The notes beneath the pieces are model-generated. The model was not told the DNA's origin, searched no databases, and saw only the letters and a program-made list of their open reading frames with translations. The position numbers were made by a program, and so were the translations under genes. A stretch of DNA of 64,000 bases from Gillisia sp. Hel1_33_143 (GTDB lineage: Bacteria; Bacteroidota; Bacteroidia; Flavobacteriales; Flavobacteriaceae): assembly GCF_900104765.1 (NCBI RefSeq), contig NZ_LT629737.1:1-64000 (forward strand). Direction: 5' to 3'. Within the stretch, counting starts at the first letter, position 1. The number at the start of each line of letters is the position of its first letter. This document shows, in pieces, positions 51,035-57,848 of this stretch.

Positions 51035-51065
51035 TTTGTCATTAAAAATATCATACTTATATTTG
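51035..51065 (+). promoter_or_regulatory. trp operon promoter
   Basis: TTTG (51035-51038), 19 bp, TATATTTG (51058-51065) is a near-perfect Bacteroidota promoter. The predicted start falls at or a few bases around the ATG of the leader peptide at 51071, so the leader mRNA may be leaderless. Confidence 0.82.
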
Positions 51066-51070
51066 GCGAA

Positions 51071-51133
51071 ATGAAAAATTTAACTGTACATACTTGGTGG
51101 TGGAATAATTTACGTCAAAACGTCGTGAACTAA
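51071..51133 (+). CDS. trpL: trp operon leader peptide with three consecutive Trp codons
   Basis: A 20-codon ORF, MKNLTVHTWWWNNLRQNVVN, lies between the trp promoter and an intrinsic terminator ahead of trpE. The three TGG codons in a row (51095-51103) are the hallmark of a ribosome-stalling attenuator; Trp is otherwise the rarest residue. When tryptophanyl-tRNA is scarce the ribosome would stall there and leave GTCGTGA (51122-51128) free to pair with the terminator. The ORF is too short to appear in routine annotation. Function is inferred from position, codons and pairing. Confidence 0.87.
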   Translation: MKNLTVHTWWWNNLRQNVVN

Positions 51134-51159
51134 CACTCCTATAGTATAATATTATATAC

Positions 51160-51191
51160 AAAAAGGCTTGTCTCACGACAAGCCTTTTTTT
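51160..51191 (+). terminator. trp attenuator terminator
   Basis: AAAAAGGCTTGTC pairs with GACAAGCCTTTTT around a TCAC loop, followed by a T tract, about 20 bp before trpE. TCACGAC (51173-51179), made of the loop and the start of the 3' arm, is the exact complement of GTCGTGA at 51122-51128 at the end of the leader ORF, giving a mutually exclusive antiterminator. Confidence 0.88.
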
Positions 51192-51212
51192 TATTCCTAA
51201 TTTTCAAAAAAT

Positions 51213-52607
51213 ATGTTTCAATTAAATACTACCTATAAAAAGTTACTTGCAGATACCATTACGCCAGTAAGCATCTATTTAAAGATTCGAGATAAATATC
51301 CTAATAGTCTCTTACTGGAAAGCAGCGATTATCACGCTAACGATAATAGCTTTTCCTATATCTGCTGTAACCCAATTGCATCCATAAAAGTAGAGAATAA
51401 TACTATTTCTAGAACCTTTCCTGATGGCAGCACTACTTCGGAAAATATAGAATCCAACACAAATATTCCGGAAGTAATTCAAGCGTTCTCTCAAAATTTT
51501 AAGGCTGAAAGATCAGATTTCAAATTTATAAATAATGGACTTTTTGGATACATCGCTTATGACGGAGTTCAATATTTTGAAGATGTCAACATCAGCAAGA
51601 AAAAAGGGAATTTAGAGATACCTGATATTTATTACGCGGTTTATCAGAACATCATCGCCATCAATCACTTTAAGAACGAAGCTTACATTTTCGATCATAA
51701 TTATGATACTGAAAGCAATCTAGAGGAGATCGAGCAATTGCTTAAAGTGAAGAATTTTGCAACCTATAATTTCACCAGACAAGAGGATCCAACTTCAAAT
51801 CTTACCGATGATGAGTTTATCGAGAATGTGAAATTGGGTAAAAAGCATTGTCAGCGTGGAGATGTATTTCAATTAGTGCTTTCCAGAAGATTTTCTCAAA
51901 AATTTAAGGGCGATGAGTTCAACGTATATCGTGCGCTTAGAAATGTAAATCCTTCTCCTTACTTGTTTTATTTTGACTATGGGAATTTCAAGATCTTCGG
52001 AAGTTCTCCAGAAGCGCAATTAGTGGTAAATAATGGTCAGGCAGAAATTCATCCAATTGCAGGAACTTTTAAAAGAACCGGAAATGATGAGCAAGATGCT
52101 ATTTTAGCTAAAGAGTTGGCCGCAGATGAAAAAGAAAATGCAGAGCATGTAATGTTGGTAGATCTTGCCAGAAACGATCTTAGTCGCCATAGCAGCGGGG
52201 TAAAAGTGGAAAAATATAGAGAAGTTCAGTTCTTTTCCCACGTCATTCATTTGGTGAGCAAAGTTACCGGTGTTAAAAATAAGGATACCGCAACTATGCA
52301 GTTGGTGGCAGACACCTTTCCTGCAGGAACTTTGAGTGGTGCCCCAAAACACAGCGCCATGACACTTATAGAAAAGTATGAAAATGTAAATAGAAGTGCC
52401 TACGGTGGTGCCATTGGGTTTATGGATTTCAACGGAAATTTCAACCATGCCATAATCATCAGATCCTTCGTGAGTAAAAATCATCAACTTCATTATCAGG
52501 CTGGCGCGGGAATCGTGTCAGAATCTAAAGAAGAAAATGAATTGCAAGAAGTTTATAACAAATTAGGCGCATTGTCTAAAGCATTAGAATTAGCAGAAGA
52601 AATATAA
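51213..52607 (+). CDS. trpE: anthranilate synthase component I
   Basis: Converts chorismate to anthranilate, the first step of tryptophan synthesis, with ammonia from TrpG. The 464-residue protein has the chorismate-binding core (GDVFQLVLSRRF, FGSSPEAQL, HPIAGTFKRTG, FPAGTLSGAPK, GAGIVSES) and the N-terminal LLLESSDYH, the LLES feedback-inhibition motif. It starts 22 bp after the attenuator terminator. A dispersed repeat lies immediately behind its stop. Confidence 0.97.
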   Translation: MFQLNTTYKKLLADTITPVSIYLKIRDKYPNSLLLESSDYHANDNSFSYICCNPIASIKVENNTISRTFPDGSTTSENIESNTNIPEVIQAFSQNFKAERSDFKFINNGLFGYIAYDGVQYFEDVNISKKKGNLEIPDIYYAVYQNIIAINHFKNEAYIFDHNYDTESNLEEIEQLLKVKNFATYNFTRQEDPTSNLTDDEFIENVKLGKKHCQRGDVFQLVLSRRFSQKFKGDEFNVYRALRNVNPSPYLFYFDYGNFKIFGSSPEAQLVVNNGQAEIHPIAGTFKRTGNDEQDAILAKELAADEKENAEHVMLVDLARNDLSRHSSGVKVEKYREVQFFSHVIHLVSKVTGVKNKDTATMQLVADTFPAGTLSGAPKHSAMTLIEKYENVNRSAYGGAIGFMDFNGNFNHAIIIRSFVSKNHQLHYQAGAGIVSESKEENELQEVYNKLGALSKALELAEEI

Positions 52608-52706: not shown

Positions 52707-53273
52707 ATGAAAAAAATATTGGTCATAGATAATTATGATTCTTTTGTGTACAATTTGGTGCATTATCTGGAAGAATTAGACTGCGAAGTAACCGTGCTTC
52801 GAAATAACGAATTAAGCTTGGAAGATGCTGAAGATTATGATAAGATCTTACTTTCTCCAGGTCCTGGAATTCCAGATGAAGCCGGTTTGCTAAAAGCTAT
52901 TGTAGAAAAATATGCACCTACCAAAAGTATTTTGGGCGTTTGCCTTGGGCAACAAGCAATTGGTGAGGTATTTGGTGGTAGTTTAATCAATTTAGATGCT
53001 GTTTATCATGGTATTGCTACAAAGATCAAAACTTGTGTAGATGATGAGATCTTGTTTGCCGGTTTAGATAAAGAGTTCTTAGTAGGGAGATATCATTCTT
53101 GGGTAGTAGCGCCTAACCTGCCAGATTGTTTAATTGCAACTTCTTATGATGAGAACGGACAAGTAATGTCTTTACGCCACAGAGATTTTGATGTAAAAGG
53201 AGTACAATTTCATCCAGAATCGGTTTTAACGCCTGATGGAAAAAAGATGATCAAGAATTGGGTGAATAGTTAG
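52707..53273 (+). CDS. trpG: anthranilate synthase component II (glutamine amidotransferase)
   Basis: A 188-residue class I amidotransferase supplying ammonia to TrpE. The catalytic triad is visible: Cys in LGVCLGQQAIG, and His-Glu in GVQFHPESVLT; the N-terminus VIDNYDSFVYNLVHYL is typical. No fusion to trpD. Confidence 0.97.
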   Translation: MKKILVIDNYDSFVYNLVHYLEELDCEVTVLRNNELSLEDAEDYDKILLSPGPGIPDEAGLLKAIVEKYAPTKSILGVCLGQQAIGEVFGGSLINLDAVYHGIATKIKTCVDDEILFAGLDKEFLVGRYHSWVVAPNLPDCLIATSYDENGQVMSLRHRDFDVKGVQFHPESVLTPDGKKMIKNWVNS

Positions 53274-53327
53274 CATACCAAGAGTCGCTGAAACAAGTTT
53301 AGCATAAAGCACCAACCAATTTAAGAT

Positions 53328-53354
53328 GTCACCCCGAGCGGAGTCGAGGGGTCT
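53328..53354. repeat. GTCACCCCGAG-type intergenic repeat
   Basis: GTCACCCCGAGCGGAGTCGA followed by GGGGTCT lies in the 95-bp trpG-trpD gap. I recognise this as a short motif scattered through many Bacteroidota genomes, usually between genes. ACCCC and GGGGT at its ends can pair. Only one copy was noticed in this window. Confidence 0.5.
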
Positions 53355-53368
53355 ATAACAAGAAAAAA

Positions 53369-54373
53369 ATGAAAGAACTTTTAAACAGACTTATAAATCA
53401 CGAAACCATTTCTAAAGAAGAAGCCAGAAAAGCTTTGGTGAACATCTCGAATGGAGAATACAACGAAAGTCAGATCGCTGCTTTTTTAACGGTGTATATG
53501 ATGCGGAGTATCACTATAGAAGAATTGGAAGGCTTTAGAGATGCACTTTTAGACCTTTGTCTTTCGGTAGATCTTAAAGCATATAATCCTATTGACCTTT
53601 GCGGAACCGGTGGCGATGGAAAAGATACATTTAATATTTCTACGCTTTCATCCTTTATAACCGCTGGTGCCGGAGTGAATGTTGCAAAACATGGTAATTA
53701 CGGAGTTTCTTCTGTAAGCGGAAGTTCTAATGTCATGGAATATTTAGGCATTAAATTCAGCAGCAACTCAGAATTCTTAGAAAAGTGTATTGCAGAAGCC
53801 GGAATTTGTGTTTTACACGCTCCTTTATTTCACCCGGCAATGAAAAATGTTGCGCCAATCAGAAAATCATTAGCCGTAAAAACATTCTTTAATATGCTAG
53901 GCCCTATGGTAAATCCTGCATTTCCGAAGAATCAATTGGTGGGAGTTTTCAATTTAGAATTAGCAAGAATGTACGGGTACCTATATCAGAACACCGATAA
54001 GAATTTTACCATCCTACACTCTTTAGATGGATATGACGAGATCTCGCTTACAGGAGCTACTAAAGTAATTTCAAATAATTCAGAAAGAATGTTAGAAGCA
54101 TCAGATTTTGGGGTTTCTCAATTAAAAGCAAATGAAATTGCCGGTGGCGGTTCTATAGAAAGTTCAGCTATTATATTTACCAATATTTTGAAAGGTAAAG
54201 GGACTGAAGCTCAAAATAATGTGGTTTGTGCTAACGCAGGAATGGCCATTGCAACATCTAAAGATCTTTCTCCAAAAGAGGGATTTGAGCTTGCAAAAGA
54301 ATCTTTATTAACCGGAAAAGGATTGGAAGCACTCAAAAAGCTTCAGGCTTTAAGTGAACATTCTAAGTTTTAA
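53369..54373 (+). CDS. trpD: anthranilate phosphoribosyltransferase
   Basis: Joins anthranilate to PRPP. The 334-residue protein has the PRPP/Mg site LCGTGGDGKDTFNISTLSSF, the KHGNYGVSSVSGSSNVMEYLG block and ending typical of the nucleoside-phosphorylase-like family (LGPMVNPA, HSLDGYDEISLTG). Fourth cistron of the operon including the leader. Confidence 0.97.
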   Translation: MKELLNRLINHETISKEEARKALVNISNGEYNESQIAAFLTVYMMRSITIEELEGFRDALLDLCLSVDLKAYNPIDLCGTGGDGKDTFNISTLSSFITAGAGVNVAKHGNYGVSSVSGSSNVMEYLGIKFSSNSEFLEKCIAEAGICVLHAPLFHPAMKNVAPIRKSLAVKTFFNMLGPMVNPAFPKNQLVGVFNLELARMYGYLYQNTDKNFTILHSLDGYDEISLTGATKVISNNSERMLEASDFGVSQLKANEIAGGGSIESSAIIFTNILKGKGTEAQNNVVCANAGMAIATSKDLSPKEGFELAKESLLTGKGLEALKKLQALSEHSKF

Positions 54374-54386
54374 TTAAAATTACATC

Positions 54387-55172
54387 ATGAATATTTTAGA
54401 TAAAATCATAGCAGATAAAAGACAAGAAGTAGCTTTAAAAAAGCAACTTATCACTTCAAGTCAACTCACAAAATATCCGCTATTCAATAGAAATACCAGT
54501 TCTCTTGCAACCGCTTTAAAGAACAGCAAATCTGGGATTATTGCAGAGCATAAAAGAAGATCCCCTTCAAAATCTGTCATCAATCAAGATCTGAATGTGC
54601 AGGATGTTGCAAGAGGCTATGAAAAAGCAGGGGTTTGCGGAATGTCTGTTTTAACCGATTCAAAATACTTTGGAGGCTCATTAGACGATTTGATCTTAGC
54701 TAGAGCATCGGTTAAAATGCCTCTTTTAAGAAAAGAGTTTATCATAGATGAATATCAAATCTTCGAAGCAAAAGCTCATGGTGCAGATGTAATTTTGTTG
54801 ATCGCTGCCATATTATCTCGAGATGAGATCAAAAACCTTTCAGAATTGGCCAAGAGTTTAGAATTGGACGTATTGTTAGAAGTTCATAATTTAGAAGAGT
54901 TAGAGAAATCTATCATGCCGAGCTTAGATATGTTGGGTGTGAATAATAGAAACCTTAAAACTTTTGAGGTAAGCACCGATATCAGCAAAAGTCTGTCAGA
55001 AAAAATTCCATCAGATTTTGTAAAGGTTTCGGAAAGCGGAATTAGTTCTGTAGAAGCTATTCAAGATCTAAAAAATTATGGATATCAAGGTTTTCTAATA
55101 GGCGAGAATTTTATGAAAACAAACGATCCAGGCGAAGCCGCAACAAGTTTTATCAATACTCTAAATCAATAA
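54387..55172 (+). CDS. trpC: indole-3-glycerol phosphate synthase
   Basis: A 261-residue TIM barrel that forms indoleglycerol phosphate. Signatures: MNILDKIIADKRQEVALKK, IIAEHKRRSPSKSVIN (catalytic lysine), LRKEFIIDEYQIFEA, LGVNNRNLKTFEV and VSESGISS. It starts 13 bp after trpD and ends 1 bp before trpF. Confidence 0.97.
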   Translation: MNILDKIIADKRQEVALKKQLITSSQLTKYPLFNRNTSSLATALKNSKSGIIAEHKRRSPSKSVINQDLNVQDVARGYEKAGVCGMSVLTDSKYFGGSLDDLILARASVKMPLLRKEFIIDEYQIFEAKAHGADVILLIAAILSRDEIKNLSELAKSLELDVLLEVHNLEELEKSIMPSLDMLGVNNRNLKTFEVSTDISKSLSEKIPSDFVKVSESGISSVEAIQDLKNYGYQGFLIGENFMKTNDPGEAATSFINTLNQ

Positions 55173-55173
55173 G

Positions 55174-55821
55174 ATGAAACTCAAAGTGTGCGGAATGCGG
55201 GAAACCGAGAATATTCTTGACGTTTCAAATTTGAAACCCGATTATATGGGTTTGATATTTTATGAAAAATCACCAAGATTTGTAGAAAATTCAATCCCTG
55301 AATTGTCTTCAGACATTAAAAGAACAGGAGTTTTTGTAAATGCAACTTTAGATTTCATTCTTAAAAAAGCTCACGATTATAAACTAAAAGCGATTCAATT
55401 ACACGGAGAAGAATCTTCAGTATTTTGTAAAGAATTAAAGTCGGCATTGAATAAAGAAATAGAAATAATAAAGGTGTTTTCCATAAAAGAAAGCTTAAAT
55501 TTTGAAGAATTAGCATCTTATGAAGGCATTGTAGATTTCTTTTTATTTGATACAAAAGGAAAGAACAAAGGTGGCAACGGAATGGTTTTCAATTGGAATG
55601 TACTGAAAGAATATCCTTCTCAAACGCCATTTTTCTTAAGCGGCGGAATTGGGTTGGAAGAAATTGAAGAAATACGATCATTACATACTTATTTTCAGAA
55701 GGAGAATAAATCAGAATTGTTATACGCAGTAGATGTGAATAGCAAATTTGAAAATTCACCCGGAAATAAAAATGCTGAACAGGTATTTGAATTTCAAAAA
55801 CAGCTTCAGCAAATAAAATAA
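55174..55821 (+). CDS. trpF: phosphoribosylanthranilate isomerase
   Basis: A 215-residue TIM barrel performing the Amadori rearrangement before Trp[15 protein letters not shown] carries the catalytic cysteine (KVCGM), [10 protein letters not shown] and QLHGEE follow, and [14 protein letters not shown] with the phosphate-binding [12 protein letters not shown] are present. Separate from trpC, as usual in Bacteroidota. Confidence 0.95.
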
Positions 55822-55849
55822 AAGTTTTAAAAGAAAAAGATCAAGAAAA

Positions 55850-57031
55850 ATGACATATCAAGCTAACGAAAAAGGATATTACGGTGATTTTGGTGGTGCA
55901 TACATCCCGGAAATGCTGTATCCAAACGTGGAAGAACTTAGATCTAGATATTTAGAGATCATGAAAGAAGAATCTTTTCAGAAAGAATTCAAAGCTTTGC
56001 TGAAAGATTATGTGGGTCGTCCTACTCCACTCTATTTCGCAGAGAGATTGAGTAAAAAATACAAGACAAAGATCTATCTAAAACGTGAAGATCTTTGTCA
56101 TACCGGAGCTCACAAGGTTAATAATACCATTGGCCAGATCTTAATGGCAAAGAGATTGGGAAAAAATAGAATTATTGCAGAAACAGGCGCTGGTCAGCAT
56201 GGTGTAGCAACTGCTACGGTTTGTGCGTTGATGGGAATTGAATGTATTGTGTATATGGGAGAAGTAGATATTGCTCGCCAAGCTCCTAATGTTGCCAGAA
56301 TGAAGATGCTAGGCGCTACAGTAATTCCTGCAAAATCTGGAAGTAAAACACTGAAAGATGCTACCAATGAAGCGATACGAGATTGGATTAATAATCCGGT
56401 AGACACGCATTATATTATTGGTTCTGTAGTGGGACCTCATCCTTATCCGGATATGGTTGCACGGTTTCAGAGCGTGATCTCGGAAGAAATTAAAGTTCAG
56501 CTAAAAGAAAAAGAAGATAGAGAAGCTCCAGATTATGTAGTGGCGTGTGTTGGTGGTGGAAGTAATGCCGCAGGGATCTATTTTCATTATTTAGACAATC
56601 CGGAGGTTGGAATTATCGCCGTAGAAGCAGCAGGAAAAGGAATTTACACAGGAGAAAGTGCTGCAACCTCAGCTTTGGGAAAAGAAGGTATTATTCATGG
56701 AAGTAAAACTTTGTTGATGCAAACCGATGATGGACAGATCACAGAGCCATATTCAATTTCAGCTGGCTTAGATTATCCAGGAGTTGGCCCTATGCATGCT
56801 AATTTGTTCAGAACAGGAAGAGGTGAATTTATTTCTATTACCGATGATGATGCAATGAAAGCAGGAATTGAACTTGCTAAGTTAGAAGGAATTATTCCGG
56901 CTATAGAAACATCACACGCTTTAGCGATCTTTGAAACTCGAAAATTTAAAGAAGATGATATTGTTGTAGTGAATCTTTCGGGTAGAGGAGATAAAGATCT
57001 TAGTACTTATATAGATTATTTCAATTTATAG
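55850..57031 (+). CDS. trpB: tryptophan synthase beta chain
   Basis: PLP enzyme that condenses indole with serine. The 393-residue protein has the PLP-lysine segment [15 protein letters not shown], the glycine loop [24 protein letters not shown] for cofactor phosphate and the closing LSGRGDKDL. Length and motifs are of the TrpB1 type that pairs with TrpA. Confidence 0.98.
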
Positions 57032-57077
57032 AAAGCACTCCTTAAACTTCAATATTTAAAGAATTTAAACAAACCAC

Positions 57078-57848
57078 ATGAATCGAATTAATCAAAAATT
57101 AAAAGAAGATAAAAAACTTCTATCTATATATTTTAGTGCAGGTTACCCAGAATTAGAAGATTCTGTTCAGATCATTCAAGATCTGGAGAAAAGCGGAGTA
57201 GATTTCATAGAGATCGGACTTCCTTTTAGTGATCCTTTAGCTGATGGGCCCACCATTCAAGAAAGCTCCACTAAAGCTTTAAAGAATGGAATGACCACTC
57301 AAAAACTTTTCAGTCAGATAAAAAACATTAGAAGTTCTGTTGAAATTCCATTGATCATCATGGGATATTTCAATCCGATCTTACAGTACGGGATTGAAGA
57401 ATTCTGTAAAAAATGTAAAGAAGTTGGGGTTGATGGCTTAATAATTCCAGATCTTCCGGTAGATGTATATTCAGAAAAATATAAGTCGATTTTTGAAAAA
57501 TACGGTCTAATTAATATTTTCTTGATTACTCCTCAAACTTCAGAAGAGCGAATTAGATTTATAGATTCTGTTTCTAACGGCTTTATTTATATGGTAAGTA
57601 GCGCGAGCGTTACCGGTTCTAGCAAAGGATTTGGTGAAGAAACCACCAAATATTTCGAAAGAATTTCAAAAATGAATTTAGAGAATCCACAAATAGTTGG
57701 ATTTGGAATTAGCGATCATGAAACCTTTTCTCAAGCTACAAAATTTGCGAAAGGTGCAATTATTGGAAGCGCCTTTATAAAACATCTCGATAAGAATGGT
57801 ACAGAGCATATTTCTGATTTTGTTTCTTCAATTATACCTTTAACCTAA
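57078..57848 (+). CDS. trpA: tryptophan synthase alpha chain
   Basis: Cleaves indoleglycerol phosphate and channels indole to TrpB. The 256-residue TIM barrel shows IEIGLPFSDPLADGPTIQ (catalytic Glu and Asp region), GVDGLIIPDLP and ASVTGSSKGF. Last biosynthetic gene of trpEGDCFBA. No strong terminator follows immediately; the next hairpin on this strand is at 58228. Confidence 0.97.
   Translation: MNRINQKLKEDKKLLSIYFSAGYPELEDSVQIIQDLEKSGVDFIEIGLPFSDPLADGPTIQESSTKALKNGMTTQKLFSQIKNIRSSVEIPLIIMGYFNPILQYGIEEFCKKCKEVGVDGLIIPDLPVDVYSEKYKSIFEKYGLINIFLITPQTSEERIRFIDSVSNGFIYMVSSASVTGSSKGFGEETTKYFERISKMNLENPQIVGFGISDHETFSQATKFAKGAIIGSAFIKHLDKNGTEHISDFVSSIIPLT

Follow-up and report, generated by a model that had tools for sequence, protein, structure and literature searches.

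The window analysed here is a stretch of 64,000 nucleotides from the genome of Gillisia sp. Hel1_33_143 (contig NZ_LT629737.1, positions 1 to 64,000, forward strand) and carries a tryptophan operon downstream of an attenuator, with the gene order trpEGDCFBA as assigned by an NCBIfam profile search. The first structural gene is trpE (51213–52607, forward strand), identified with NCBIfam model TIGR00564 (E value 4.4e-130, 434.7 bits, which is under the curated cut-off of 517.7), and the nearest named relatives of its product are from Gillisia limnaea (84%), Salegentibacter and Christiangramia. The next genes, trpG, trpD, trpC, trpF, trpB and trpA, occupy 52707–57848 on the same strand. A model above its NCBIfam cut-off was found for trpG, trpD, trpC, trpB and trpA, while trpF is under the cut-offs with a best E value of 9e-40.

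The region upstream of trpE contains a candidate promoter with the Bacteroidetes consensus boxes TTTG and TAnnTTTG (as described in PMC7366714 and PMC6847099), the relevant promoter model for this locus; a scan for sigma-70 type promoters was discarded as the wrong model for a Bacteroidetes host. The predicted −33 box TTTG is located at 51035–51038 and is separated by 19 nt from the −7 box TATATTTG at 51058–51065, both on the forward strand like all features that follow. The leader peptide ORF (51071–51133) begins with an ATG at 51071–51073, encodes the peptide MKNLTVHTWWWNNLRQNVVN in 20 codons and ends with a TAA stop at 51131–51133. Three consecutive, putatively regulatory tryptophan codons (TGG TGG TGG) are found at 51095–51103. 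Near the end of the ORF is the putative antiterminator segment GTCGTGA (51122–51128), which is the exact reverse complement of TCACGAC at 51173–51179. This predicted target is composed of the loop TCAC (51173–51176) and the first three bases, GAC, of the 3' arm of an intrinsic terminator (51160–51189) with a 13-bp stem followed by T residues. The terminator was identified by a terminator scan and an energy model and is unique within the 801-base stretch scanned on both strands, where 0.2 were expected. Folding of the leader gave a z-score of −3.75, and none of 200 shuffles was equally stable. An earlier reading made from the sequence alone had described the promoter, ORF, Trp codons, both complementary segments, terminator and trpE; all coordinates that it gave are correct base for base, and the seven-base complementarity that it described is exact.

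Relation to the Bacteroid-trp family

The element is almost certainly a member of the Rfam family RF01692 (Bacteroid-trp), a catalogued identity that the sequence-only reading had omitted. The match covers 51051–51172 and the full model (1–131) and scores 74.4 bits, where the gathering score is 49, and the element is located upstream of trp genes in a Bacteroidetes genome. The sequence, the structure, the Trp codons and the placement before trp genes are those of the family described by Weinberg et al. in 2010 (PMC2864571), the main text of which gives the name once, in a table. An RF01692 motif upstream of the Flavobacterium psychrophilum trp operon was likened to E. coli attenuation in 2019 (PMC6414381), and a transcriptome study of F. 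psychrophilum in 2021 reported "strong clues" of leader-peptide attenuation upstream of amino-acid operons (PMC9723704). A trp attenuator at this place, catalogued as RF01692, is therefore nothing new.

The Rfam model ends at window position 51172, in the 5' arm of the terminator and before its loop and 3' arm, so the loop/3'-arm pairing found at the window locus lies outside the RF01692 model as catalogued. In the E. coli trp attenuator, a leader peptide with Trp codons is combined with competing RNA structures and an intrinsic terminator, and the antiterminator occupies the 5' arm of this terminator. The window locus shares the short ORF with clustered Trp codons, the intrinsic terminator before the first gene and an alternative pairing that is kept, and in places compensated, among relatives and would compete with the terminator. 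It differs from the E. coli form in having three consecutive Trp codons, a predicted 5' UTR of 0–1 nt and a target in the loop and 3' arm, the latter in 114 of 118 loci, which makes it a variant of ribosome-mediated trp attenuation. The switch is thus ordinary in kind and unusual in wiring.

Matches to RF01692 were obtained in 109 of 149 Flavobacteriaceae genomes, the window's own genome included. A class-level draw of 295 genomes gave 15 with a match, six of which are outside the family. The set used for comparison comprises 120 loci with the window, consisting of 108 of the 109 family matches and 12 further loci; one match at a contig edge (G082) was left out, as was L121, which is the same place as L107. 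The automatic rule assigned no terminator to L068 and L114, which are absent from the 118-row sets but present in the 120-locus set used for shuffles and geometry. A named set of 80 loci overlaps with this unnamed set, and counts from the two are not independent; seven of the named loci failed the automatic leader rule, although all seven have a leader, and their spacing was measured afterwards. The Trp codons, proposed earlier as a feature to be checked in relatives, are conserved, and the start codon is positioned 24 nt ahead of them in 108/120 loci.

The genes that follow the leader vary. At the class-level locus L109, the protein after the leader begins by eye like TrpB and not like TrpE, and the same leader may therefore front differently ordered trp operons. 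Five loci (L185, L186, L188, L226 and L241) have a short ORF between the attenuator and trpE, with CCCGCC-TTCG-CGGG-like hairpins nearby. A Pfam GIY-YIG domain was identified in both of the ORFs scanned (L185 and L241), and the attenuator remains upstream of the ORF. L224 also has a longer gap before trpE, but no such short ORF by the same rule.

Predicted start of the leader transcript

The TATATTTG box ends 5 nt ahead of the leader AUG at 51071. In Flavobacterium johnsoniae, 4 or 5 nt are reported to separate the −7 box from the start site, with a much less evident −33 box (PMC6847099), and by this distance transcription of the window leader is predicted to start at 51070 or 51071, giving a 5' UTR of 0–1 nt. 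In 113/120 loci a strict −7 box is located no more than 40 nt from the start codon, with a spacing of 5 nt in 20 of the 120 and of 14–23 nt in 62. The smallest spacing among the 113 is 4 nt, at a single locus (L016) that has a second box at 18 nt. Within the named set, 30 of 80 loci have a spacing of 5 nt and two of 4 nt, and one is cut by a contig end. The 17 nearest named relatives (L184–L200) include 13 with the 5-nt spacing, namely two Gillisia, Zunongwangia, nine Christiangramia/Gramella and Salegentibacter maritimus. The remaining four are Salinimicrobium marinum at 8 nt (L193), two other Salegentibacter near the window at 38 nt (L185 and L186) and the locus cut by its contig end (L198).

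A near-leaderless start is therefore a good prediction for the window clade. The 62 loci at 14–23 nt and the two Salegentibacter at 38 nt indicate that it is not a trait of the whole family, and the earlier suggestion of a possibly leaderless leader fits the promoter distance in only part of the Flavobacteriaceae. Genome-wide, the pattern TAHHTTTG-N5-ATG occurs 58 times against 36 for the reversed pattern, a slight enrichment only. The tree built from the protein encoded next after the leader has poor resolution, with 75 of its 115 inner branches open, mixes genes and places L053, L102 and L120 on very long branches; it forces at least three changes of the 5-nt state on its starred branches, and nothing else was taken from it.

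The alternative that an unseen upstream start gives the leader a conventional 5' UTR is considered rather unlikely. Only a minority of mRNAs in this group are leaderless: such mRNAs account for only 5.5% of F. psychrophilum mRNAs with a mapped start (PMC9723704), and 87% of F. johnsoniae transcripts with a probable promoter are reported to have a leader of more than 10 nt (PMC6847099). This background and the wider spacing of the 62 loci would suit such an upstream start, but the window has an exact TATATTTG with TTTG at the 19-nt distance, the 5-nt spacing is shared by 13 of its 17 nearest named relatives, and no spacing shorter than 4 nt was found among the 113 loci. A leaderless trp leader has been described for Sinorhizobium meliloti (PMC7298713), so that any novelty would be in the place and not in the idea. 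The literature passages searched gave no description of a leaderless trp leader in Bacteroidetes.

Pairing between the leader and the terminator

The stretch after the Trp codons was searched for helices with the terminator, leaving the target side unspecified, in the 118 loci with an automatically found terminator. The loop and 3' arm outscored the 5' arm as the partner of the leader segment (TCGTGA) in 114 of these, in agreement with the sequence-only reading, which had aimed the antiterminator at the loop and 3' arm and not at the 5' arm. The four exceptions, with higher scores on the 5' arm, are L061, L076, L118 and L120. The last and L118 are class-level loci under the Rfam cut-off, with their best helix on the terminator 5' arm, and are possible relatives of the classical type.

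The 6-bp core of the helix forms standard pairs in 686 of 706 cells (97%), a proportion that falls to 3–51% when the partner is slid by 1–3 columns. When each leader was dinucleotide-shuffled 200 times, no more than 5% of the shuffles matched its pairing with the loop region in 101/120 loci, among them that of the window, and more did so in the other 19. Among the 120 loci, no ungapped loop helix better than shuffles was found in L103, L105, L118, L119 and L120 (p 0.33–0.97). The automatic rule found the leader of 73 named loci, and 65 of them contain both TCGTGA and TCACGA. Loss of the 7-bp pairing in close relatives would have told against the earlier reading; the core is kept as above and compensated in a few lineages, but Gillisia limnaea, the nearest named relative, has AACGTGA and keeps 5 of 7 pairs by eye.

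The segment seldom varies, and where it does its partner sometimes follows. Eight core cells are changed on both sides, a count reached by none of 2000 re-dealings of whole terminators (mean 0.55, maximum 6). Without seven rows of doubtful register, six such cells remain, again reached by none of 2000 re-dealings (maximum 4); three of these six represent one change common to related class-level loci, so the events are few, and the re-dealing ignores kinship. The both-side changes are located in L079, L105, the class-level L109, L111 and L117. Compensated partners include GTCGCAAT with ATTGCGAC (L079), GTCGTAAG with CTTGCGGC (L109) or TTACGGC (L117) at class level, CCGT with ACGG (L105) and AGTGAG with TTCACT (L068). 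Slid partners gave 9 (−2 columns) and 7 (+1 column) cells by both-side changes alone, close to the real 8, and weight is therefore placed on the 97% of paired cells and on the re-dealing. On these grounds the loop/3'-arm pairing is well supported by comparison of the sequences.

Two other counts were set aside. A first re-dealing count of 13 cells (mean 1.7, maximum 7) leaned on five outer-pair cells and two cells of L118 in rows of doubtful register and was replaced by the counts of 8 and 6. A mutual-information scan of all column pairs was dominated by clade structure and had no antiterminator pair among the 40 pairs listed; pair counts, re-dealing and sliding were used instead. The terminator arms GGCTTGTC and GACAAGCC are exactly kept in 86/120 trp loci, and double pairing explains only their top (GTC/GAC).

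Histidine leaders were used as a control for the search. Of 60 genomes searched, 49 had a hisG match, and 31 loci were taken by best score plus the window's own. A His leader with a terminator was identified in 27 of the 31, and four gave no leader by rule. These leaders resemble the trp leader in having a leader peptide with HHH(H), a terminator and a segment near the stop codon, but in 26/27 a search of this kind puts the best helix on the 5' arm, the classical target. The procedure therefore has no built-in preference for the 3' arm, and the trp switch is unlike the neighbouring ones. One such element, L152 (reverse strand, upstream of hisG, G000:C1 near 2779200), encodes the His leader peptide MRTIQLHHHHFHYCAQAR followed by a terminator with a 5'-arm antiterminator. 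The window genome also encodes a Phe/Tyr leader peptide, MNNFNSWNACYYFYFYTRDKIGSAM, upstream of pheA (L153, about 1340–1470); a terminator follows, and a helix of 10 bp reaches its 5' arm and loop. Rfam scans of L152, the one his locus scanned, and of L153 gave no match at gathering. An ilvD leader was also sought, and the window genome has no ilvD match.

The position of the trp helix is conserved as well. It begins 25–29 nt after the first Trp base in 115/120 loci, and in 117/120 its end falls at −8 to +14 nt relative to the stop codon's first base. The reading frame through the helix differs between loci, and TCGTGA may contain the stop codon, precede it by a few bases or follow it, which indicates that the segment is kept as RNA and not as peptide. 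A ribosome covers about 12 nt ahead of its A site. By this footprint, a ribosome on the Trp codons would leave the segment free and one at the stop codon would cover it, and the kept distances fit the stall-and-cover logic that had been proposed from the position of GTCGTGA.

Proposed mechanism of the attenuator

The window element is likely a ribosome-mediated transcription attenuator of the trp operon, a Bacteroid-trp member with its AUG at the transcription start or one base after it and with antitermination through the terminator loop and 3' arm; the earlier reading is, overall, supported by the comparison. Transcription would start at the AUG or one base before it. With no ribosome on the RNA, two structures would hide GTCGTGA and the terminator would form: P1, in which 51090–51102 pair with 51134–51147, resembling the Rfam consensus stem, and the P2 hairpin of 51109–51114 with 51124–51129. 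When Trp-tRNA is scarce, a ribosome stalled on the Trp codons would open P2, and the freed GTCGTGA could pair with the terminator loop as a toehold and with the first bases of the 3' arm, disturbing the hairpin so that the polymerase reaches trpE. When tryptophan is plentiful, the ribosome would run to the stop codon with its body over GTCGTGA, and the terminator would form.

Structure models agree with parts of this scheme. In the modelled nascent RNA free of ribosomes, six of the seven segment bases are paired (P 0.88–0.99). P2 stays closed when the modelled ribosome has the first Trp codon in its A site. Placing the third Trp codon there removes P2, but 51125–51127 then pair in a 3-bp hairpin (P 0.78–0.91) in a structure worth only −2.8 kcal/mol. 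A weak equivalent of P2 is present in an alignment of 39 TCGAAA-type leaders (consensus energy −1.85), RNAalifold predicted no structure for 48 leaders of the TTACG type, to which the window belongs, and of the six P2 pairs, four occur in only about every second row of the pooled alignment.

The terminator is predicted at −17.5 kcal/mol and the 7-bp duplex at −9.1, with −8.8 for the lower stem (51160–51169 with 51180–51189) when the loop and arm top are open. The target emerges only once most of the terminator hairpin is made, so the duplex cannot pre-empt the terminator, and by these energies it cannot win alone at equilibrium. For a 7-bp helix to defeat this terminator, the pairing would have to act by kinetics, entering through the loop, or by forming an H-type pseudoknot beside a lower stem that is weakened.

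The same energies would allow the pairing to be real without being antiterminating, as a pseudoknot in the finished leader RNA that serves stability or a trans-acting RNA, with attenuation proceeding via P1/P2 or ribosome–polymerase coupling. The duplex is weaker than the terminator and the lower stem could persist beside it, and the alphaproteobacterium S. meliloti has been described as having an attenuator RNA that also acts in trans (trpL/rnTrpL, PMC7298713). Against this alternative, the segment would be free only when the ribosome stalls, a regulatory sign that fits and favours antitermination, and its distances to the Trp codons and to the stop codon are kept; it is judged improbable. 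This alternative and that of an upstream start gain a little weight, and the main reading loses a little, from the two Salegentibacter at 38 nt, from the pairing that persists when a stalled ribosome is modelled and from the lower number of compensatory cells. An ordinary attenuator with its antiterminator on the 5' arm and an incidental loop/3'-arm match is highly improbable. This arrangement is that of the his leaders and of the Phe/Tyr leader of the window genome, and four trp loci score higher with the 5' arm, but the window leader pairs through 7 bp (score 18) with the loop and 3' arm against 4 bp (score 6.5) with the 5' arm alone, and 114 of 118 loci agree with it.

Antitermination through the loop and 3' arm has partial likenesses among riboswitches. 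A pseudoknot with the terminator loop has been suggested as the means of antitermination for the fhsA motif, a speculative riboswitch candidate (PMC11109978), and a conserved terminator loop was one clue to the HMP-PP (thiS) riboswitch (PMC6478431); unlike the trp leader, neither includes a leader peptide in these descriptions. Loop/3'-arm antitermination in a peptide attenuator was not found described in the literature passages searched. It is tentatively proposed, at somewhat less than even confidence, that the Flavobacteriaceae and their kin have a separate design of peptide attenuator, in which the segment is a partial copy of the 5' arm top together with a complement of the loop. In this design the loop would serve as toehold for a strand swap with the 3' arm, an H-type pseudoknot would weaken and not replace the terminator, and in the window clade the leader would be translated from a 5'-terminal AUG without Shine-Dalgarno use.

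If true, a peptide attenuator that antiterminates through the terminator loop would give a textbook switch a second wiring. The window genome also carries a classical attenuator (his), so both could be compared in one cell. The RF01692 model could be extended to the terminator loop and 3' arm, and a leader AUG at the 5' end could serve as a natural reporter of leaderless initiation where bacteria make no use of Shine-Dalgarno sequences.
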